Part shown: positions 1,276 to 14,919 of the stretch, piece by piece | Numbering within the stretch: position 1 is the first letter of the stretch | Layout of the letters: every line of letters begins with the position of its first letter | NCBI GenBank assembly: GCA_029881995.1 | Contig: JAOULO010000041.1 | Span: forward strand, 1 to 32,129 | Length of the DNA stretch: 32,129 bases | Source of the DNA: Gammaproteobacteria bacterium | Lineage (GTDB): Bacteria; Pseudomonadota; Gammaproteobacteria; UBA6429; Thiohalophilaceae | Direction: 5' to 3' | Translations under genes and position numbers: made by a program | The notes under the pieces: model-generated | What the model was told of the DNA's origin: nothing | Database searches by the model: none | The model's input: the letters and a program-made list of their open reading frames with translations, nothing else

Positions 1276-2382
1276 TTGGATAAAACGCACGACAAGGTCA
1301 ATTTGCTCGATTTCGATCGGGCTGGACTGGAAGCTTTCTTCGCTGAGATAGGGGAGAAGCCTTTTCGTGCAACCCAGATTTTAAAATGGATCTACCAGTT
1401 CGGGGTCGATGACTTTGATGAGATGACGAATCTCAGCAAGGCTCTGCGGGAAAAGCTGAAAGAAATAGCCGAAGTCCGTTTACCGGAGATCGTCACCGAA
1501 CAATATTCAGCAGATGGTACCAGTAAGTGGTTACTCCGATTAGATAGCGGTAATTCGGTTGAGACCGTGTTCATTCCTGAAGATGACCGCGGCACGCTCT
1601 GTGTCTCGTCCCAGATCGGCTGCGCCCTCGAATGCAGTTTCTGCTCCACGGCCCAGCAGGGTTTTAATCGCAACCTGACGACGGGAGAGATCATCGGTCA
1701 GCTATGGGTGGCCAACCGAGCGATGGAAAATCGACCACGAGATAATCGCAAGATCAGCAATGTGGTGATGATGGGTATGGGCGAACCCCTGCTGAATTTT
1801 GATAACGTGGTCAGGGCCATGAACATCATGATGGATGATAATGCCTATGGCCTGTCCAAACGGCGTGTCACCCTGAGTACTGCGGGTGTGGTACCGGCCC
1901 TGATGCGCCTTAAACAGGTGAGTGATGTGAGCCTGGCGGTTTCACTGCATGCACCCAATGATGAGCTGCGTAATGAACTGGTGCCGCTGAACCGCAAATA
2001 CCCGATTAAAGAGTTACTCGAGGCCTGTCGTGAGTATGCCAGTGGTGAGGGGCGTCGTCATATTACTTTTGAGTATGTGATGCTGGATGGTATTAACGAT
2101 AGCCCGGAACATGCCAGACAATTAGTAAAACTCTTAAAAGGTATTCCAGCGAAAATGAATTTGATCCCATTCAATCCATTTCCGCAAAGCAGCTATCAGT
2201 GCTCTGACCGACCGACCATTGATCGCTTTCGTGATGTACTGATGAAAGCGGGTATCGTCACGGTAACACGTAAGACCCGTGGTGAAGATATTGATGCAGC
2301 CTGTGGCCAACTGGCCGGCAAGGTAAAAGACAAAACCAAACGGACACAACGAAAGATACTTATGGCAGGGGGAAGTGTGTAA
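1276..2382 (+). CDS. rlmN: Dual-specificity RNA methyltransferase RlmN
   Basis: RlmN is a radical-SAM enzyme that makes 2-methyladenosine at A2503 of 23S rRNA and at A37 of some tRNAs. The 368-residue product has the cluster motif C116-x3-C120-x2-C123 ([16 protein letters not shown]) binding the 4Fe-4S cluster. The GMGEPLLNF and [10 protein letters not shown] segments of the SAM-binding barrel follow, and a C-terminal Cys near 343 (DAACGQL) serves as the methyl-relay cysteine. The start is TTG, supported by AAGGA at 1263-1267 with an 8-nt gap. The stop overlaps the pilF start by one base (TAATG), indicating translational coupling. Confidence 0.96.
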
Positions 2383-3161
2383 TGCCACGATTGATATATT
2401 TATTTGGATTTTTGCTATCACTACAGATGATGTCAGCCTGTAGCACAACCACGGAAAGTGCCTACGGCAATATAAATTATAAAAAAGCGGCCGAGGTGAA
2501 TGCCAAGATGGGTGCGGGTTATATGAATCAGGGCAACTATGAATTGGCAATGACCAAGCTTAACAAGGCCATCAAGTTTGATGATGAGAACCTGCATGCC
2601 AACCATTATATGGGTGAACTCTACCGCAGGCTTGGTGACATGGATAAAGCCGATGAATTTTTTAAACGTGCCCTGGAGTTGAATAAGACCGATCCACAAT
2701 TATTAAATAATTACGGTGTTTTTCTTTGTGAAATTGATAAATACCAGGAAGCCGAAAATTATTTTGATCAAGTCCTGAAAGATCACTTATATCAGGGTAA
2801 AGCACTGGTTTATGAAAACCTGGGCCTGTGTGCCAAGTACAAAGGCAACCTGGCTGAGTCAGAAAAACATTTTCGTCGTGCCCTAACCATGAATCCCAAA
2901 CTGGCCAAATCACTATTATCACTGGCCCAGTTAAAGTTTGATCAGCGTAATAAAATTTCTGCTTACAGTTATTTCCAGCAATTTAGTAAAATATCCCGTC
3001 AGAGTCCTGAAAGCCTCTGGTTGGGAATATTGCTTGAGAAAGAGCGTGGCAATAGAAGTGGTATGGCAAGTTATGCACTGCGGTTGAAAAACCAGTTTCC
3101 TCTTTCGAAAGAGGCGGAGTTACTAGCGAAGCTGGAATTGCTGAAAAGAAAAAGAAAATAA
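2382..3161 (+). CDS. pilF: Type IV pilus biogenesis lipoprotein PilF (PilW), TPR
   Basis: This is an outer-membrane pilotin that helps the secretin PilQ assemble in type IV pilus systems. The 259-residue product begins with a lipoprotein signal ending MMSAC, so lipidation would be at Cys20. Tandem TPR units follow, for example KAAEVNAKMGAGYMNQGNYELAM, NLHANHYMGELYRRLGDMDKA and PQLLNNYGVFLCEIDKYQEA. Placement directly after rlmN is the usual gammaproteobacterial context. In most relatives rodZ and ispG come next; here hisS follows after 31 nt. Function is inferred from family and position. Confidence 0.9.
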   Translation: MPRLIYLFGFLLSLQMMSACSTTTESAYGNINYKKAAEVNAKMGAGYMNQGNYELAMTKLNKAIKFDDENLHANHYMGELYRRLGDMDKADEFFKRALELNKTDPQLLNNYGVFLCEIDKYQEAENYFDQVLKDHLYQGKALVYENLGLCAKYKGNLAESEKHFRRALTMNPKLAKSLLSLAQLKFDQRNKISAYSYFQQFSKISRQSPESLWLGILLEKERGNRSGMASYALRLKNQFPLSKEAELLAKLELLKRKRK

Positions 3162-6433: not shown

Positions 6434-7831
6434 ATGAAACCCGTTATCGCCCTGGTGGGCCGCCCCAATGTGGGCAAGTCCACCTTATTCAACCGACTGA
6501 CCAAGTCACGTGATGCCCTGGTTGCTGACCAGCCGGGCCTGACCCGTGATCGTAAGTTTGGTGAAGGCAAGCTGGGTGATAAGCCTTATATCGTGATCGA
6601 CACCGGTGGTCTGAGTGGTGACGACGAGGGTGTTGATGCGGTTATGGCGACGCAATCCTGGTTGGCGGTAGAGCAGGCCGATATCGTTTTGTTTATGGCC
6701 GATGCCCGGGCAGGTCTGACCGGGGTTGATGAAGAGATTGCGCAGCGATTACGGATTTCCGGTAAAACGGTCCATCTCGTGGTCAACAAGATCGATGGAC
6801 TTAACGCGGATGTGGTGGTGGCAGAATTTCATGCCCTGGGTCTGGGTGAGCCGCATGGCATCGCAGCAGCCCATGGCCGTGGTGTGACGGCCCTGATCGG
6901 TGAAGTGCTGGATAATTTACCCGGCTCAGATGAAGAACAGGACCAGTTGGATGATTACAAGGGAATCCGGATTGCAGTTGTAGGTCGTCCTAACGTGGGC
7001 AAGTCCACCCTGGTAAACCGAATGCTGGGTGAAGAACGTGTTGTTACCTACGATTTACCCGGCACAACACGCGACAGTATTTATCTCCCCTTTGAGCGTG
7101 ATGATCAGGACTATGTTTTGATTGACACGGCAGGTGTCAGACGGCGTCGTAAGATCAATGAGGCCATCGAAAAATTCAGTGTTATTAAATCCCTGCAGGC
7201 CATTGAAGATGCCCATGTGGTGATCATGATGCTGGATGCCAGTGAAGGGATCACCGATCAGGATGCATCACTGCTGGGCTTTGTCCTTGATGTAGGTCGA
7301 GCGCTGGTCATTGCCGTGAATAAATGGGACGGTCTTGAAAGTGATCAGCGCGATAAGGTCAAGAGAGAGCTGGAAGTTAAACTGCCCTTTATCAACTTTG
7401 CTAAAGTTCATTTTATCTCTGCCCTGCATGGTAGTGGGGTAGGTGACCTGTTTGGCACGGTAAACGTGGCCTACAAGTCGGCCATGTCAAAGTTCACCAC
7501 GCCACGCCTGACTCGACTATTGGAAGATATGGTTAGTGCCAACCCGCCACCTATATCAAAAGGCAGGCGAATCAAACTTAAGTATGCTCACCAGGGTGGC
7601 TCAAACCCACCTATTATTGTCATTCATGGTTCACAGGTAACCGAAGTACCGGGTGCTTATAAACGTTTTCTGATGAATGCCTTCAGCAAACATCTCAAAC
7701 TGAAAGGTACACCACTGCGAATCGAATTCAAGGCAGGCAAGAATCCTTTTGAAGGTCGAAAAAACAAACTCACTGCTCGTCAGCAACAAAAACGCAAACG
7801 CCTAATGAAGCACGTCAAATCGAAGAAATAA
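6434..7831 (+). CDS. der: Ribosome biogenesis GTPase Der (EngA)
   Basis: Der has two tandem GTPase domains and acts in 50S subunit maturation. The 465-residue product shows G-domain 1 with GRPNVGKS at 9-16, DTGG at 56-59 and NKID at 118-121. G-domain 2 has GRPNVGKS at 184-191, DTAG at 231-234 and NKWD at 296-299. A KH-like C-terminal domain ([19 protein letters not shown]) and a basic tail follow. The gap to bamB (69 nt) holds a good promoter but no clear Shine-Dalgarno. The TAA stop shares a base with the ATG of the next gene. Confidence 0.97.
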
Positions 7832-8211
7832 TGGCCATAGAAACGCTCTATCTCTGGCTGGCAAATTTAATCATCGTTTTTCACTTCCTGTTTATTGTTT
7901 TTGTTTTATTAGGCGGCTTGCTTGTCCTTAAGTGGCCAAAGATGATCTGGCTGCATCTACCGGCTATCACATGGGGTTTCCTTGTGGAATTGAATGGCTG
8001 GATTTGTCCACTAACCCCGTGGGAGAACCACTTTCGTGAACTGGCTGGCAAGCTGGTTTATGAAGGAGACTTCATAGGGAAATATCTCATTCCCTTAATT
8101 TATCCTGATGGGCTGACGCGCGAGATGCAGTACGTATTCGCTGCAATTGTGGTGCTAATTAATGCAGTTATTTATTTTGTAATCTGGCAGCGAACAAAAA
8201 GCAAATACTAA
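7831..8211 (+). CDS. DUF2784 family membrane protein
   Basis: This is a 126-residue membrane protein of unknown function. Three or four hydrophobic segments are visible: LWLANLIIVFHFLFIVFVLL, the region around IWLHLPAITWGFLVE, and VFAAIVVLINAVIYFVIW. The conserved core ELNGWICPLTPWENHFRELAG and LIPLIYPDGLTREMQ identifies the DUF2784 family as I recall it. The ATG overlaps the der stop (TAATG), so it is translated in step with der. Its stop overlaps the convergent M23 peptidase stop by four bases. No function is proposed. Confidence 0.85.
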   Translation: MAIETLYLWLANLIIVFHFLFIVFVLLGGLLVLKWPKMIWLHLPAITWGFLVELNGWICPLTPWENHFRELAGKLVYEGDFIGKYLIPLIYPDGLTREMQYVFAAIVVLINAVIYFVIWQRTKSKY

Positions 8212-9038
8212 AGTTTTTCCTGCAAGAAGAGTTTTGGCTCGACCTTGGTATTATTTAAAGTCACCACCCAGTGTAAATGGGGCCCACTGACTCGACCGGT
8301 ACTACCGACTTCACCAATTTTCTCGCCCTGCTTCAGAATATCACCGGCTTTTACATCTGTTTTACTGAGGTGACAGTACATGGTGATCAGTCCCTGACCG
8401 TGATCGAGAAAGACGGTTCCACCGGTAAAGAAGTAGTCGCCGGTTCTAATCACTTTACCCTTAGCCGGTGCAATAATAGGTGTGCCATTAGGGGCGGCGA
8501 TATCCAGGCCGGTGTGGTTTCGAATGCGTTCCTGTTCATTATATTTTCGGCGCAGTCCAAACTGACTACTGAAGCGGCCCTGTACCGGTTTGATAAATGA
8601 CATGGGAACTTCATCCTGCTCAGTCCAGGTTTTGAGTGCTTTAACCATGAGTGGTTTTTCCTTGAAGTGTCGTTCAAGGTCTTTCTTGCTTGGTGAGACC
8701 ATGCGTTCATTAGGAATTCGAATATGTCTAAATTCATATTTCTTGTGTTTGATTTTGAAAGATTGCTTCGTCGTTGTAGCGGATTTAACAGTAATTGAAC
8801 GTTGACCCTTTTTCAGGGTCAGGGGGATGCCCACCACCGCGTGCCAGTTACCATTCTTGCCTTTGACCACCATGACACGGCGTTTCAGGAACTGAACCTC
8901 GGGAGGCTTTTCGCTGTTTGTTTTCAGGTCGACCACGGCAATTCCGCCCGGCACCGGATTATGACGTGGCAGGGCCTGGGCAAAAACAGTGGATGAAAAA
9001 GTGAAAAAGAAAATATAAACAAATATTTGCTGGGACAA
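8208..9038 (-). CDS. Secreted M23 (LytM-type) peptidase
   Basis: The 276-residue product has an N-terminal signal (IFVYIFFFTFSSTVFA, cleavage near residue 20-22) and a central beta-rich domain. Its C-terminal LytM/M23 domain has zinc and catalytic residues intact: His175 and Asp179 (NHTGLD), His223 (YCHLS) and His254/His256 (GPHLHW). Such enzymes cut peptidoglycan cross-links; an intact site argues against an EnvC/NlpD-like non-catalytic activator. The start is TTG, 1 nt after the xseA stop and with only a weak GAG upstream, so translation is probably coupled to xseA. The signal lacks the usual N-terminal lysines, leaving the exact start slightly uncertain. Confidence 0.88.
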   Translation of the reverse strand: MSQQIFVYIFFFTFSSTVFAQALPRHNPVPGGIAVVDLKTNSEKPPEVQFLKRRVMVVKGKNGNWHAVVGIPLTLKKGQRSITVKSATTTKQSFKIKHKKYEFRHIRIPNERMVSPSKKDLERHFKEKPLMVKALKTWTEQDEVPMSFIKPVQGRFSSQFGLRRKYNEQERIRNHTGLDIAAPNGTPIIAPAKGKVIRTGDYFFTGGTVFLDHGQGLITMYCHLSKTDVKAGDILKQGEKIGEVGSTGRVSGPHLHWVVTLNNTKVEPKLFLQEKL

Positions 9039-9039
9039 T

Positions 9040-10407
9040 TTACTCGTTACTCTCTTTGACTTCGGTTACCTGACAGTATAGCTGACCTTCAGCAAGGCGG
9101 GTCCGGACCGGGTCACCGGTTTTCAATTGTTTGGCCTGACGAATAATCTGTCCTTTCTCATTGGTGACAATGGCATAACCACGTCCCAGGGTGGCGAGGG
9201 GGCTGACGGCATCAAGGGAATGCACCAGACGGTATAAGGTCTGGTGTCGTAGTTTGAAGGAGTGCTGCATGGCAGTGGCCAGTCTCCGCGACAGATTGTG
9301 GTTTTTTTCATTTAGCCCAAGCAGTCGATGTGCTGGATTATGTTGTTGCAGGCGCTCATGAGAGTGTTGTAAGCGACTGCGTGTGTGGCGCAACAGGTTA
9401 TGCCCGGCACGTTGTAGCCGCAGCTCCAGCTCATCCAGGCGCTGAGCCATGTTGTGAAGTCGCCGCCCCGGGTGCTGGAGACGTTTTTCCAGATTTGTTA
9501 CTGCTTGTTGCTGTTGCCTTAACTGATTTTTCATCAACCAGCCAAGGCGTTGAGACAGATTCTTTAATTTAAGCAGCCATTCCTCCTGATCTGGACTGAT
9601 CAGTTCTGCTGCGGCCGTCGGGGTCGGTGCTCGCTGGTCAGCAACAAAGTCTGCGATAGTAAAGTCGATCTCATGGCCAACGCCGGTGACAATTGGGATC
9701 GAACTGGCATAGATGGCTCTGGCAACAATCTCTTCATTAAAGGCCCATAGATCTTCCAGCGAACCACCACCTCTAGCCAGAATAATAATGTCGCACTCAC
9801 CCCGTTGATTGACACGTTTGATCATCTCTGCAATCTGTGGACCTGCTCCTTCACCCTGCACACTAACTGGATAAACGATGATGGGTAAGGATGGGAAGCG
9901 GCGTTTTAAAGTGGTAATAATATCTCGAACGGCAGCACCACTGGGTGAGGTAATAACGCCGACACTGTTGGGCAGGGCTGGTAATGGCTTTTTATGGGCT
10001 GAATTGAACAGTCCTTCTTTATCAAGCCGCAGTTTGAGTTCATCAAAGGCCCTGCGCAGGGCCCCAGCGCCAGCTTCTTCCAGGTGTTCAATGATTAACT
10101 GAAAGTCACCACGGGGTTCGTACATGGTGACCTTGGCACGAACCAGTACTTGCATGCCATTCTGGGGCTTAAAACCCAGGTTGAGATTTCGGTTGCGGAA
10201 CATTGCACAACGTACCTGGGCCTTATCATCTTTAAGCGAAAAATACAGGTGTCCTGAGGCCGGGCGAACCAGATTGGAAATTTCTGCCTCCAGCCAAAGC
10301 AGGGGAAAACCACCGTCTAATAATTGGCGGACTTCACGGTTGAGGCGCGAAACATTATAGATATTTCGAAATTCCTGATTGCCTGAATCTGTTCCGAATG
10401 TACTCAT
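9040..10407 (-). CDS. xseA: Exodeoxyribonuclease VII large subunit
   Basis: XseA is the catalytic large subunit of ExoVII, which degrades single-stranded DNA to oligonucleotides together with XseB (not in the window). The 455-residue product matches E. coli XseA (456). It has an N-terminal OB fold (VSRLNREVRQLL, PASGHLYFSLKDD, AQVRCAMFR) and the catalytic core (KKPLPALPNSVGVITSPSGAA, ARGGGSLEDLWAFN, GHEIDFTIADFVADQRAPTP). A long Gln/Arg-rich coiled coil and a C-terminal segment (SPLATLGRGYAIV) complete it. The ATG at the right end gives MSTFGTDSG; no strong ribosome site precedes it. It lies upstream of the M23 gene and is divergent from guaB, a common gammaproteobacterial arrangement. Confidence 0.96.
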   Translation of the reverse strand: MSTFGTDSGNQEFRNIYNVSRLNREVRQLLDGGFPLLWLEAEISNLVRPASGHLYFSLKDDKAQVRCAMFRNRNLNLGFKPQNGMQVLVRAKVTMYEPRGDFQLIIEHLEEAGAGALRRAFDELKLRLDKEGLFNSAHKKPLPALPNSVGVITSPSGAAVRDIITTLKRRFPSLPIIVYPVSVQGEGAGPQIAEMIKRVNQRGECDIIILARGGGSLEDLWAFNEEIVARAIYASSIPIVTGVGHEIDFTIADFVADQRAPTPTAAAELISPDQEEWLLKLKNLSQRLGWLMKNQLRQQQQAVTNLEKRLQHPGRRLHNMAQRLDELELRLQRAGHNLLRHTRSRLQHSHERLQQHNPAHRLLGLNEKNHNLSRRLATAMQHSFKLRHQTLYRLVHSLDAVSPLATLGRGYAIVTNEKGQIIRQAKQLKTGDPVRTRLAEGQLYCQVTEVKESNE

Positions 10408-10448
10408 GGGATTAATACTAGCTAGCTGTTGAGTGAATTTGCAGACAC

Positions 10449-10475
10449 AAAAAAGCCGGGTAATTACCCGGCTTT
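10449..10475 (-). terminator. Rho-independent terminator of the small lipoprotein gene
   Basis: AAAGCCGGGTAA/TTACCCGGCTTT is a perfect palindrome (10452-10475). On the minus strand the stem is followed by a T run (CGGCTTTTTTG). It lies 24 nt after the lipoprotein stop and separates that gene from xseA. Confidence 0.85.
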
Positions 10476-10498
10476 CTGGTCGTTACCTGTTATCTGAA

Positions 10499-10801
10499 TT
10501 AGATACGAGGACGAGCACGTTTGGCAGCTTTTGCCTGTTGAAGTGCCATTTCAGCCTGTTTCTTGGCCTTATTAGCTTGCTTTACAGCTTCATCAAACTC
10601 GCCATCTTTGGCGGCAGCTTCAGCTTTTTTGATGATCTTGCCGGTGTCACGCCATTCGAACTCAGCTTTTTTGGCCTTTTTGTTCACGCTCTTAGCAGCA
10701 GAGATAGCCGCAGCAGCATCTTTGTCGGTGTGCTTTTGTTGTGCGCCACAGGCACCCAAAACCAGAGCTGCAGCGATAAATAATGGTACGAATTTTTTCA
10801 T
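10499..10801 (-). CDS. Small SoxXA-binding-protein-like (SoxK/SAXB-like) lipoprotein
   Basis: The 100-residue product begins MKKFVPLFIAAALVLGAC, a lipoprotein signal with Cys18. An Ala/Lys-rich helical domain follows with EFEWRDTGKIIKKAEAAAKD and EAVKQANKAKKQAEMA. The WRDTGK-x-I-x-x-A pattern followed by alanine-rich helices is what I remember of SoxXA-binding proteins (SAXB in Chlorobaculum, SoxK in purple sulfur bacteria). These bind the SoxXA cytochrome and aid thiosulfate oxidation. The ATG is chosen because GGAGGAG lies 3 nt upstream; an in-frame TTG four codons earlier lies within that site. It has its own terminator and a TATAAT upstream, so it is a single-gene unit. No sox gene is nearby. 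A structural Lpp-like role is an alternative. The lipoprotein call is firm, the family call moderate. Confidence 0.7.
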   Translation of the reverse strand: MKKFVPLFIAAALVLGACGAQQKHTDKDAAAAISAAKSVNKKAKKAEFEWRDTGKIIKKAEAAAKDGEFDEAVKQANKAKKQAEMALQQAKAAKRARPRI

Positions 10802-11092: not shown

Positions 11093-12556
11093 ATGCTTAG
11101 AATAGCCCAAGAAGCCCTTACATTCGATGATGTTTTGTTGGTGCCAGCTCATTCCAATGTCCTGCCCAAGGAAGTGGAACTGAAAACGCTGTTGACCCGG
11201 GATATAGAGCTGAACATCCCACTGCTGGCGGCAGCCATGGACACCGTCACCGAGGCTCGCCTGGCGATTGCCATGGCTCAGGAAGGGGGCATTGGCATCG
11301 TACACAAAAACATGGATGCCGAGAGTCAGGCCAATAATGTCCGTCAGGTGAAAAAATTTGAGAGCGGCGTGATTAAGAATCCATTGACTGTTAGCCCCAA
11401 GGCTTCAATTCGTGATGTCATGGAACTGACCCGGGCACACAATATTTCTGGTGTACCCGTGGTGGATGGCCCAGAACTGGTCGGTATCGTCACCAATCGC
11501 GATCTCCGCTTTGTTACCGAGATAGACAAGCCAGTCTCCAGCATTATGACACCTAAAGATCGACTGGTAACTGTCAAGGAAAGCGCTGATCGAGAAGAAG
11601 TACTGGCCACTCTGCACAAGTTTCGAATCGAAAAAGTGCTGGTCGTAAATGGCGCCTTTGAATTACGCGGCCTCATTACCGTAAAAGATATCCAGAAAGC
11701 CAGCGAGTTTCCCAATGCCTGCAAAGATGATCAGGGTAGCTTGCGCGTGGGCGCAGCGGTGGGTGTCGGTGAAGGTACAGATGAGCGTGTTGAGGCCCTG
11801 GCCGAGGCTGGTGTCGATGTGGTCGTGGTTGATACGGCCCATGGCCATTCTCAGGGTGTACTGGATCGTGTAGCCTGGGTGAAAAAGAATTTCCCGCAAA
11901 TCCAGGTGATAGGTGGAAACATTGCGACTGCGGAAGCAGCTAAGGCTCTGGCCAAGGCGGGAGCGGATGCCGTGAAAGTTGGTATTGGCCCAGGTTCCAT
12001 CTGTACCACCCGAATCGTAGCCGGTGTGGGTGTACCTCAGATTTCCGCCGTGGCCAATGTGGCCGAGGCCCTGAAAGGAACAGGTATCCCATTGATTGCC
12101 GACGGCGGTATTCGTTATTCAGGGGATGTCTCCAAGGCTATCGTGGCGGGTGCTCACTCCATCATGGTGGGTTCTATGTTTGCAGGTACTGAAGAATCGC
12201 CTGGTGATGTAGAACTCTTCCAAGGCCGTTCCTACAAGGCCTATCGTGGTATGGGATCCATGGGTGCCATGACAGCACGTCACGGCTCTTCAGATCGTTA
12301 TTTCCAGGAAGGGGGTGAGGCCGATAAGCTGGTTCCGGAAGGGATCGAAGGTCGTGTACCTTACAAAGGACCACTTGGAGCAGTTGTACATCAGCTACTG
12401 GGAGGTATTCGTTCCAGCATGGGTTATACCGGTTGTCGGACCATTGAAGAGATGCGCACCAAACCAGAGTTTGTACGTATCACCGGTGCTGGCATGAAGG
12501 AATCGCATGTGCACGATGTCACGATTACTAAGGAAGCACCGAATTATCGTGTTTGA
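11093..12556 (+). CDS. guaB: IMP dehydrogenase
   Basis: The enzyme oxidises IMP to XMP with NAD, the first step from IMP to guanine nucleotides. The 487-residue product (E. coli 488) has the barrel start [14 protein letters not shown] and two CBS domains at about 94-205 that respond to nucleotides. The catalytic loop [15 protein letters not shown] carries Cys304, and the [13 protein letters not shown] phosphate-binding segment and a mobile flap ([10 protein letters not shown]) follow. guaA is not downstream; instead a strong terminator ends the unit. The ribosome site is weak (GGA at 11080-11082). Confidence 0.98.
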
Positions 12557-12568
12557 TCTTTTCAGGAC

Positions 12569-12616
12569 ACACTAAAACACAAAGCCCGGCATATGCCGGG
12601 CTTTGTGTTTTAGTGT
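12569..12616. terminator. Bidirectional terminator, 48-nt perfect palindrome
   Basis: Each 24-nt half is the exact reverse complement of the other. The half starts ACACTAAAACACAAAG and continues into a GCCCGGCAT core centred on ATAT. A GC-rich stem flanked by A-rich and T-rich arms serves both guaB (ends 12556) and the convergent fusion gene (ends 12625). Confidence 0.9.
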
Positions 12617-12624
12617 CGCTAGTG

Positions 12625-14565
12625 TTAACTCGCCTTTTGTATCACTACCGTAGTGACAGCACTATTGGTATCACAAGCTTCCAGAATATGGCCGGTCTTT
12701 TTACACCAGACACTAATATCATTTACAAAACCGGGATCAGACGCGGATACCCTGAGTTTATGCCCCTGCTCAATGCTACGAATTTCCTTGTTGAGTTTCA
12801 TGATAGGGCCAGGGCAACTGAGACCTACCGCATCAATGAAAAGAATATTCTCATCTATTGTTTCGTTTTGCATCCTATTTCCATTCGATACAGCCAGTTT
12901 ATTTTCCTGATATGATTCTTGTTGCAAGGCTGGACTTATTGCAGAAAAGTATATTTTCAGTCCACCACTCAGACTGAAAACATGTTTAAAGCCATGTTGA
13001 CTCATGATTCGCCAGGCAAAATAACTTTTTTTACCCTGCTGACAACAAAGAATATATTTTTTGTTTTTGTCGAGTTGCTTCATTGAGGCCCGTAATTTCT
13101 CAAGTGGGATATTGATGGCTCCATCAATATGATTTAACTCAAACTCATCTGGCGTTCGAACATCGATAACAACCGCCTCATCCTGAACATGAAAATCCAG
13201 TTCGTCCCAGAACACCACCTGATAGCCATCGCGTAACATGTTTCTAGCAACCATTCCTGCGATATTTATTGGATCCTTAGCCGATGAATAGGGTGGTGCA
13301 TAGGCCAGTTCCATTTCAGCCATATCAAAAATCGTACCTTTAAGCTGAATTACGGATGCAATGACATCAATACGTTTATCAACACCCCGAACTCCCACTA
13401 TCTGAGCACCTAGTATCTTGCCTGAATTAGGGGAAAATAGCAGTTTTATGGTGAGAGGAAATGACTCAGGATAGAAAGAAGCATGTGCTGGAATATCGCT
13501 ATAGGATTTTTTATAGGCAATATTTTGTGCCCTTAATTGTTTTTCAGAATAACCGGTTGTTGCAGCGGTCATATCAAATACTTTAACGATACTGGTGGCC
13601 TGCATGGAGTGATATTTTTCATGGCCACCAAGGATATTACTGGCAACAATAGTAGCCTGCTTGTGGGCAGGTCCAGCTAATTGTATAACGGCCTTATTGT
13701 TATAAATCTGATCAACACTTTCTACTGCATCCCCCAGTACATAAATATTATCAACTGTTGAGAGCAGTCCTCGGTTTACATAAATGCCACCTGATTCTCC
13801 TATGCGGAGCCCTGCCTGCTCAGCAAGTTGAGTCTGCGGCTTGGCACCAATTGCCAGGATTACCAGATCGGCATCTATCTTCTTGCCATTCTCCAGTACA
13901 ATATGATCATCACATATTTCTATAACTTTGTTATTTAATAAGAGGTTAATCTGATGAGAGTGAATATGCTGATGTAGAAAGGAAGCCATTTCCGGATCCA
14001 GTGGTGCCATGACCTGACTGGATGCTTCAATTAACGATGTCTTTATTCCTCGTATCTTTAAATTGTCGGCGGCTTCAAGACCAATAAACCCACCACCAAT
14101 GACTACGGCATTTTTACAGTTGTGATCATTAATATACTGAGTGATTCGATCCATTTGTTCCAGGTTATTGAGAGTAAACACGGAAGCGTTGTCGACTCCT
14201 GGAATGGGAGGATAAACAGGACTGGCACCTGGCGATAGAACCAGTTTGTCATAGGTAATCTTCTTTTTATGGTTTTTTTTGTGATCTAGTACAGTCAACA
14301 GTCTTTTCTGTGGATCAATAGCGATAACCTCCATGCGTATCTGTACATCCACATTAAGCAGTTCGGCAAAAGACTCAGCTTCCACTACGACCATACGGTC
14401 GCGATCCTTAATAACTTCACCAATGTGATATGGAATACCGCAGGTTGCCTGGGATATGCTATCAGCCTTATCAACCAAAACTATTTCTGCAAATTCGTCT
14501 AGCCTGCGTAAACGTGCTGCGGTACTGGCACCACCGGCACCACCACCAATAATTACGATTTTCAT
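12625..14565 (-). CDS. CoA-disulfide/persulfide reductase fused to rhodanese and TusA domains
   Basis: The 646-residue product has three parts. Residues 1-445 are a flavoprotein of the CoA-disulfide reductase (CoADR) family. It has an FAD loop (IVIIGGGAGGASTAARLR), the catalytic Cys42 (ATCGIPYHIG), a second nucleotide loop (VVIGGGFIGLEAA), the FAD segment YVLGDA and the Tyr pair in AYAPPYSSAKDP (422, 426). Residues about 455-545 are a rhodanese domain with active loop Cys508-QQGKKS. Residues about 575-646 are a TusA domain with Cys584 in SCPGP. CoADR-rhodanese relatives reduce CoA or protein persulfides with NAD(P)H; an appended TusA suggests sulfur relay to a carrier. The ATG is set by AGGAG 6 nt upstream. 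The gene is visibly AT-richer than its neighbours and stands alone, so recent transfer is possible. Substrate unknown. Confidence 0.93.
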   Translation of the reverse strand: MKIVIIGGGAGGASTAARLRRLDEFAEIVLVDKADSISQATCGIPYHIGEVIKDRDRMVVVEAESFAELLNVDVQIRMEVIAIDPQKRLLTVLDHKKNHKKKITYDKLVLSPGASPVYPPIPGVDNASVFTLNNLEQMDRITQYINDHNCKNAVVIGGGFIGLEAADNLKIRGIKTSLIEASSQVMAPLDPEMASFLHQHIHSHQINLLLNNKVIEICDDHIVLENGKKIDADLVILAIGAKPQTQLAEQAGLRIGESGGIYVNRGLLSTVDNIYVLGDAVESVDQIYNNKAVIQLAGPAHKQATIVASNILGGHEKYHSMQATSIVKVFDMTAATTGYSEKQLRAQNIAYKKSYSDIPAHASFYPESFPLTIKLLFSPNSGKILGAQIVGVRGVDKRIDVIASVIQLKGTIFDMAEMELAYAPPYSSAKDPINIAGMVARNMLRDGYQVVFWDELDFHVQDEAVVIDVRTPDEFELNHIDGAINIPLEKLRASMKQLDKNKKYILCCQQGKKSYFAWRIMSQHGFKHVFSLSGGLKIYFSAISPALQQESYQENKLAVSNGNRMQNETIDENILFIDAVGLSCPGPIMKLNKEIRSIEQGHKLRVSASDPGFVNDISVWCKKTGHILEACDTNSAVTTVVIQKAS

Positions 14566-14919
14566 TAAACGCTCCTTGTCGGGTACTGCCCCCGATTTGT
14601 TGACAAGAAAAAAACAGACAAAAGCGTAATTCATAAAAATGAATACGCTATGACAATTGCCAGAAAACGCTTATCGTTGGTCCATGAATTTTCTGAAACT
14701 TGTGGTGGTTCACAGGATCAGAATAGAGATTAAAGCTATTTAATAATTAAACCTGTTCTAAAACTCCCTCTTAAAATTATTCCCTATAATGGTTATGGTT
14801 CAAAATTGTCGCTATTGTAGAGATGAAATCAGTCTGTGCACTGATACGATTAAAGCTGTCGTCAGTCTGAAATTTTATATGCATAGAACTTACGATCAAG
14901 TGACATTTATTACACAAGC
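14566..14919. other. 354-nt non-coding region between two minus-strand genes
   Basis: AT-rich, with no convincing coding frame. It holds TTGTCA on the minus strand (14656-14651), a plausible -35 for the fusion gene with only a weak -10 (TATGAA). A hairpin lies at 14623-14649 and a 6-bp stem ATCAGT/ACTGAT at 14828-14845 downstream of the LysR gene. No clear terminator is seen after the LysR stop. Confidence 0.5.
14623..14649 (-). repeat. Imperfect inverted repeat upstream of the fusion gene
   Basis: AGCGTAATTCAT and ATGAATACGCT pair around AAAA with a single bulged base. It lies 58 nt upstream of the ATG, just downstream of the candidate -35, so it may be an operator or leader hairpin. Confidence 0.45.

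Follow-up and report, generated by a model that had tools for sequence, protein, structure and literature searches.

A DsrE-less fusion of a CoA-disulfide reductase-like protein with rhodanese and TusA domains in a gammaproteobacterium with dsr genes

The three-domain gene and its locus

The stretch of DNA analysed here (32,129 nucleotides, hereafter called the window) contains a gene whose product joins a flavin reductase resembling CoA-disulfide reductase (CoADR), a rhodanese and a TusA domain. The following features were identified at this locus:

12625–14565, minus strand: three-domain gene, CoADR-like flavin reductase, rhodanese and TusA, 646 aa (open frame, Pfam)
14572–14576, minus strand: AGGAG, resembling a ribosome-binding site, 6 nt upstream of the ATG and favouring the 646-aa start
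13657–14565, minus strand: Pyr_redox_2, FAD/NAD(P) domain, residues 1–303 (Pfam, 4e-59)
13279–13590, minus strand: Pyr_redox_dim, dimerisation domain, residues 326–429 (Pfam, 1e-13)
12955–13203, minus strand: Rhodanese domain, residues 455–537 (Pfam, 1e-18)
12859–12927, minus strand: linker, residues 547–569 (pLDDT <50 in the AF2 model)
12634–12837, minus strand: TusA domain, residues 577–644 (Pfam, 1e-17)
12569–12616, no strand assigned: perfect inverted repeat of 24 nt, lacking a loop and containing runs of A and T, in the gap between guaB and the three-domain gene (repeat search)

The frame starts with an ATG at 14565–14563 and its stop codon ends at position 12625. A longer frame of 669 aa, starting at 14634, was dropped since the ribosome-binding-like sequence suits the 646-aa start. 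Cys42 lies in the motif ATCGIP (codon 14440–14442) and is preceded by Thr41, the rhodanese loop, CCQQGKKS, has Cys508 as its second Cys (codon 13042–13044) and Lys513 in place of an Arg, and Cys584 belongs to the CPGP motif of TusA (codon 12814–12816); the remaining cysteines are Cys507 and four others. The Pfam scan detected no DsrE match in this chain, which ends after TusA. The earlier note on this DNA had described a 646-residue protein with this domain order and with Cys42, Cys508 and Cys584, all of which is confirmed by the frame, by Pfam and by alignments to solved chains. The domain search it had proposed returned all four Pfam domains above their own cut-offs. We add that the gene lies on the minus strand and that the genome holds a second full-length three-domain copy.

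Between the window protein and its orthologue in a congener (G001), protein identity is 72% and dN is 0.20 overall, while the dS estimate gave –1, which we took as saturation. Together with the domain E-values, this conservation argues against a chance frame. Divided by part, dN against the same orthologue amounts to 0.17 for the reductase, 0.25 for the rhodanese, 0.15 for TusA and 1.09 for the linker, the residues 546–575 of which are only 18% identical. Since dN in TusA is about that in the reductase, TusA is as tightly constrained as the enzyme.

The gene is flanked by a convergent guaB on one side and by a LysR gene, itself beside leuC, on the other, and the stop codons of guaB and the three-domain gene are separated by 68 nt. 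To judge from its sequence, the inverted repeat in this gap is perhaps a shared two-way terminator; the terminator scan, for which a loop of 3–8 was required, did not list it. When the two short flanks were each searched alone for repeats, only short weak pairs were found besides this repeat, and the promoter scan gave 8 sites, compared with 7.0 in shuffles. With 41.7% G+C, the gene lies below guaB (52.6%), lysR (48.2%), leuC (54.6%) and the window as a whole (48.0%), so that the lone, AT-rich gene between guaB and the leu regulator, as the earlier note had it, is borne out (neighbours 48–55%). Among the 17 window genes measured, the one at 2382–3161 is lower still (40.6%), and the second three-domain gene has 41.8% within a surrounding stretch of 40.3%; for these reasons the low G+C content carries less weight. 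No operon partner of the gene points to a pathway.

Similarity to characterised persulfide reductases

The solved enzymes most similar to the window protein are persulfide reductases. CoADR-RHD of Bacillus anthracis aligns in one stretch with residues 2–543 (phmmer 2e-142) and CoAPR of Enterococcus faecalis in one stretch with residues 2–539 (4e-125), whereas Npsr of Shewanella loihica aligns with residues 2–217 and 222–540 (6e-139). The likeness thus extends over residues 2 to ~540 and includes C42 and C508; the latter is aligned to the loop Cys of both CoADR-RHD and CoAPR. In contrast to the window protein, all three lack TusA and carry an Arg in the loop where it has Lys513, and Cys42 stands in NCG in Npsr and CoADR-RHD but in TCG in the window protein. 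E. coli TusA aligns with the C-terminal part at 7e-9, with Cys584 placed on its CP motif. According to PMC9405070, turnover by CoAPR needs both C42 and C508, and a swinging pantothenate/CoA arm is thought to act in it.

An AF2 model built from 39 sequences (mean pLDDT 88.7, pTM 0.83) shows the TusA-like element order beta-alpha-beta-alpha-beta-beta in residues 574–643. Foldseek searches with this model placed CoADR-RHD, Npsr and CoAPR at the top ranks, the Bacillus CoADR-RHD with a TM score by target of 0.95. Two curated NCBIfam equivalogs remain below their cut-offs: the CoA-disulfide reductase model TIGR03385 scores 448.1 bits (cut-off 578.8), a limit likewise missed by all eight relatives scanned, and the tRNA-thiolation TusA model PRK00299 scores 53.9 bits over residues 549–646 (cut-off 78). 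Judged by its architecture and its cysteines, the window protein is a CoADR-rhodanese protein.

Fusions with and without DsrE

Proteins of related architecture are already in print. Pcar_0429 of Pelobacter carbinolicus has four domains and is counted with the genes that are most strongly upregulated during sulfur reduction; a relay from rhodanese to TusA, with NADH reduction through FAD, was proposed for it in 2012 (PMC3543383). BF638R_0572 of Bacteroides fragilis was described in 2018 with the same four domains (PMC6158253), and both proteins share the reductase-rhodanese-TusA order of the window protein and add DsrE. A DsrE-Npsr-TusA fusion presented as a novel gene from lake bins in 2021 likewise unites reductase, rhodanese and TusA in one chain, and adds DsrE and two rhodanese regions (PMC7887784). 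The relay architecture put forward in the earlier note therefore stands, but the addition of TusA to a CoADR-rhodanese protein is not new. What distinguishes the window protein from the four-domain CoADR-Rhd-TusA-DsrE fusions is the absence of the C-terminal DsrE_2 domain, and our searches of the open-licence PMC literature brought up no description of a DsrE-less fusion.

Fused TusA frames of more than 300 aa numbered 33 in the loci fetched and the window, two of them (L043 and L047) being only part of a chain; 29 carry DsrE and four do not. Besides the window protein, these four are its orthologue in G001 (L013), the second full-length three-domain copy of the window genome (L017, C18:68035–69975, 48% identical) and L014 from a genome of another gammaproteobacterial family (G072). 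All four stop after TusA. Four-domain proteins occur in several phyla. A search of named genome contigs with the window protein yielded no relative. A second contig search employed two patterns, one being the clade's own loop, and possibly left out records near the window genome; among the best 80 of its at least 261 confirmed loci there was no DsrE-less member, and DsrE was present in each of the 17 frames that combine rhodanese and TusA.

Several single loci are also of note. In the four-domain frame of a Bacteroides MAG (L034), YLGP replaces the CPGP motif, so the TusA Cys is lost. In L024 (from G201), L057 and L059, the reductase is fused to two or three rhodanese domains, and TusA gave no match. 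The contig that carries the second three-domain gene also holds, at positions 14150–14677 (G000:C18), one match that spans the rhodanese and TusA portions of the query and contains an internal stop codon. The second gene itself lies tail to tail with a globin-type gene (positions 10032–10469 of locus L001, on G000:C18; Bac_globin, PF01152).

Could the window gene be a recently truncated four-domain gene? We rejected this idea: the gap between the stop codons of this gene and guaB measures only 68 nt, its TusA domain is whole and under constraint, and the four members all end after TusA.

Phylogeny of the fusions

The main tree was calculated from the reductase and rhodanese parts (61 rows, 555 columns), without L034 and L043 (short), L093, L197, L199 and L200 (filtered out) and L201 (fetched later). 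Here, the four DsrE-less members form one clade, with support values of 100 (quick tree) and 100/100 (careful tree). A single origin of all TusA-bearing fusions was rejected on this reductase-rhodanese tree (AU test, p = 1e-37). With regard to a possible loss of DsrE in the ancestor of the four DsrE-less proteins, a group of these and 13 proteobacterial four-domain rows, named after the tree had been seen, was not rejected (AU test, p = 0.26).

With 42 rows and 62 columns, the alignment of the TusA domains by themselves is too short to tell where they come from: its tree does not group those of the four three-domain proteins (3 changes), and one clade of all fused TusA domains obtained p = 0.08 over these 62 columns. 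The CPGP motif is present in 32 of the 33 fused TusA domains, whereas CPLP is found in seven of nine stand-alone frames, including the separate host genes of this type at L003 and L005, which share the presence of a TusA domain with the fusions. Because of this difference in motif, a derivation of the fused TusA from the host's own TusA gene is not favoured.

Distribution and origin of the gene

Matches of 1e-100 or better are present in five of 96 relatives, in 17 of 369 genomes of the class and in 20 of 398 genomes of the phylum; at the stricter limit of 1e-150, four of 379 class genomes remain. All of these counts include the window genome, the genome sets overlap, and the class and phylum scans scored at most three candidates per genome, so that members could be missed. 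Within the family, full-length matches are confined to the window genome and G001 (two of 40 genomes, many of the 40 being incomplete), and the next best match (2e-30) covers the FAD/NAD part only.

The neighbouring genes were then used as anchors, with loci extending at most 1500 bases to each side. A LysR match was found in 35 genomes and 30 of these loci were fetched: leuC adjoins LysR in 29, the remaining locus being cut by a contig end, and the three-domain gene adjoins LysR in two, those of the window genome and G001. The same two are the only ones in which the gene adjoins guaB (30 loci, 34 genomes with a match). The earlier note had named close relatives at this same locus across the whole order as evidence against transfer; instead, the gene occurs in only two of 40 family genomes, in both at this locus. 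G010, from another genus of the family, shows the order leuC-LysR-guaB with a different frame in between, which has no match to the three-domain gene. This frame of ~226 codons fills the gap between LysR and guaB (L116, 2377–3338), and genes may thus come and go at this site. In the congener G002, the two anchor genes are located on separate contigs, and no match was found in the 705 and 1500 bases beyond them.

A late acquisition in the ancestor of the window genome and G001 is plausible. The acquisition suggested in the earlier note hence agrees with the patchy distribution, but the analysis brought up no donor, and the second copy shows that the lineage holds this type twice. Vertical inheritance with many losses, rather than acquisition at the locus, seems doubtful to us, although the deep clade unites two copies in one genome with one from another family, as such a history would predict. 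It has to be reconciled with the two family genomes of 40 (several incomplete) and the poor next best match, with the order of G010, which has leuC-LysR-guaB without the gene, and with a G+C content below that of the neighbours in both hosts, the orthologue in G001 having 54.0% compared with ~60% for guaB and the lysR piece.

Sulfur genes of the host organisms

A dsrA gene scores above the cut-off in the window genome (G000) and in G001, G002 and G010, and the dsrA match of G072 lies at a contig end (371.5 bits, cut-off 392.85); all three genomes with DsrE-less fusions therefore have dsrA, that of G072 being cut by the contig end. The reverse does not hold: dsrA does not imply the three-domain gene, as G002 and G010 have the former and not the latter. 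Taken with the 38 of 40 family genomes that give no full-length match, this makes the three-domain gene accessory. Of the 20 other hosts tested, dsrA exceeds the cut-off in none of 12 with four-domain and in one of eight with two-domain proteins, but a link between missing DsrE and dsr genes rests on few independent cases, because ten of the 12 hosts belong to one family and the eight are a selection.

Around dsrA in the window genome we read by eye frames for dsrB, dsrE, dsrF, dsrH, dsrC, dsrM, dsrK, dsrL and dsrJ, dsrA alone having been assigned by profile. This host also has two strong DsrE_2 genes and four stand-alone TusA-like frames. DsrE_2 (PF13686) is matched in 39 of the 40 family genomes, some matches being weak, by frames of 60 to 271 aa, which are hence unfused. 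On another contig of the window genome (L147, G000:C128), within the stretches 7735–10542 and 12283–13325, two DsrE_2 genes flank a frame of 489 aa that by eye resembles an outer-membrane porin, with two small membrane-like frames nearby, the first of which matches Sulf_transp (PF04143).

Proposed function and alternatives

We propose that the window protein acts as a soluble persulfide reductase of the Npsr/CoAPR type that depends on NAD(P)H, and that its TusA, attached to the rhodanese through a flexible linker, exchanges sulfur with cellular carriers; we put the probability of this reading at roughly 0.55. The FAD/CoA chemistry, the rhodanese-TusA transfer and the direction of flow are inferred from the relatives. 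By this analogy, NAD(P)H would reduce the FAD, which in turn would reduce Cys42. Persulfide would have two possible points of entry: Cys584 of TusA, onto which a carrier of the cell would load it, or Cys508 of the rhodanese itself. From Cys508 the sulfur would pass to bound CoA, the arm of which would swing to Cys42 of the partner subunit, where the persulfide would be reduced and H2S would leave. Through the TusA arm, the reductase could thereby tap or relieve the pool of carrier-bound sulfur in a Dsr-type sulfur oxidiser. CstA of Staphylococcus aureus is not known to include a flavin reductase. Like the window protein, CstA combines rhodanese and TusA in one chain, within which sulfur is transferred from the former to the latter, as told in PMC9918477.

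Since the reductase has been kept, reduction of carrier-bound persulfide to H2S is favoured over the loading of carriers, which we consider unlikely. In that case, Cys508 would take sulfane sulfur from CoA persulfide, glutathione persulfide or polysulfide and pass it to Cys584 of TusA, which in turn would supply DsrE2, DsrEFH and DsrC with sulfur to be oxidised; the task of the reductase would be limited to keeping thiols reduced. Such a route would suit a host of the Dsr type that has genes for DsrE_2 and TusA, and for DsrEFH as read by eye. The lack of a fused DsrE would suit it as well, because free DsrE could accept the sulfur, and in Allochromatium vinosum sulfur moves from rhodanese through TusA and DsrE to DsrC, as told in PMC9918477. 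Yet an NAD(P)H reductase that is intact in its main motifs would waste sulfur here, and two genomes of the family, G002 and G010, possess dsrA and show no full-length match.

The residues specific to the DsrE-less clade bear on the question whether the reductase has drifted to another task, as a disulfide reductase, an NADH oxidase or an inefficient reductase whose main activity is trans-sulfuration. Position 41 is T in all four three-domain rows and N in all 57 others, position 513 is K in all four and R in 54 of the 55 others with a letter, and position 364 is F in three of the four and Tyr in 53 of the 57 others. Tyr also occupies position 364 in the three solved persulfide reductases aligned. 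From the alignment offsets, we take this position to match the active-site residue Tyr361 of S. aureus CoADR, of which a Y361F mutant appears among the PDB titles. As these changes lie beside or in active sites, N41T, Y364F (3/4) and R513K might have changed or weakened the reduction. R18, R21, C42 and Y422 are retained in all four three-domain rows, the overall fold is kept, and T and K are mild changes, which makes a drifted reductase quite improbable. N41 and R513 are present in the four-domain rows aligned here; given that N and R are nearly universal elsewhere in the alignment, we treat T41 and K513 as a marker of the clade, not as family-defining.

An assimilatory role, with the TusA domain supplying sulfur for tRNA thiolation or the molybdenum cofactor as E. 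coli TusA does, is very improbable despite the alignment to that protein (7e-9), in view of the score of 53.9 bits against the equivalog cut-off of 78, a motif that is CPGP as in the fusions and not CPEP, the patchy distribution and the stand-alone TusA-like frames of the host.

Returning to the persulfide reductase, a highly speculative extension concerns the Dsr-type oxidisers. The DsrE-less clade might dock its tethered TusA on the free DsrE2/DsrEFH pool and tap the oxidative relay with NADH, as a reductive overflow valve, or, in reverse, gain NADH from carrier-bound sulfur, with T41 and K513 tuning the exchange.

Sulfur oxidisers hand sulfur on along protein persulfides, and to our knowledge there has been little study of how this stream connects with the NADH pool other than through the Dsr enzymes. 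With carrier and reductase in one chain, and this in genomes with dsrA, the protein offers a small, purifiable system for measuring the direction of sulfur flow between TusA, rhodanese, CoA and flavin. In one clade, the DsrE part of a known fusion is dispensable or was never present, and the window protein points to a site at which, in a sulfur oxidiser, electrons and sulfur carriers may come together within one polypeptide.
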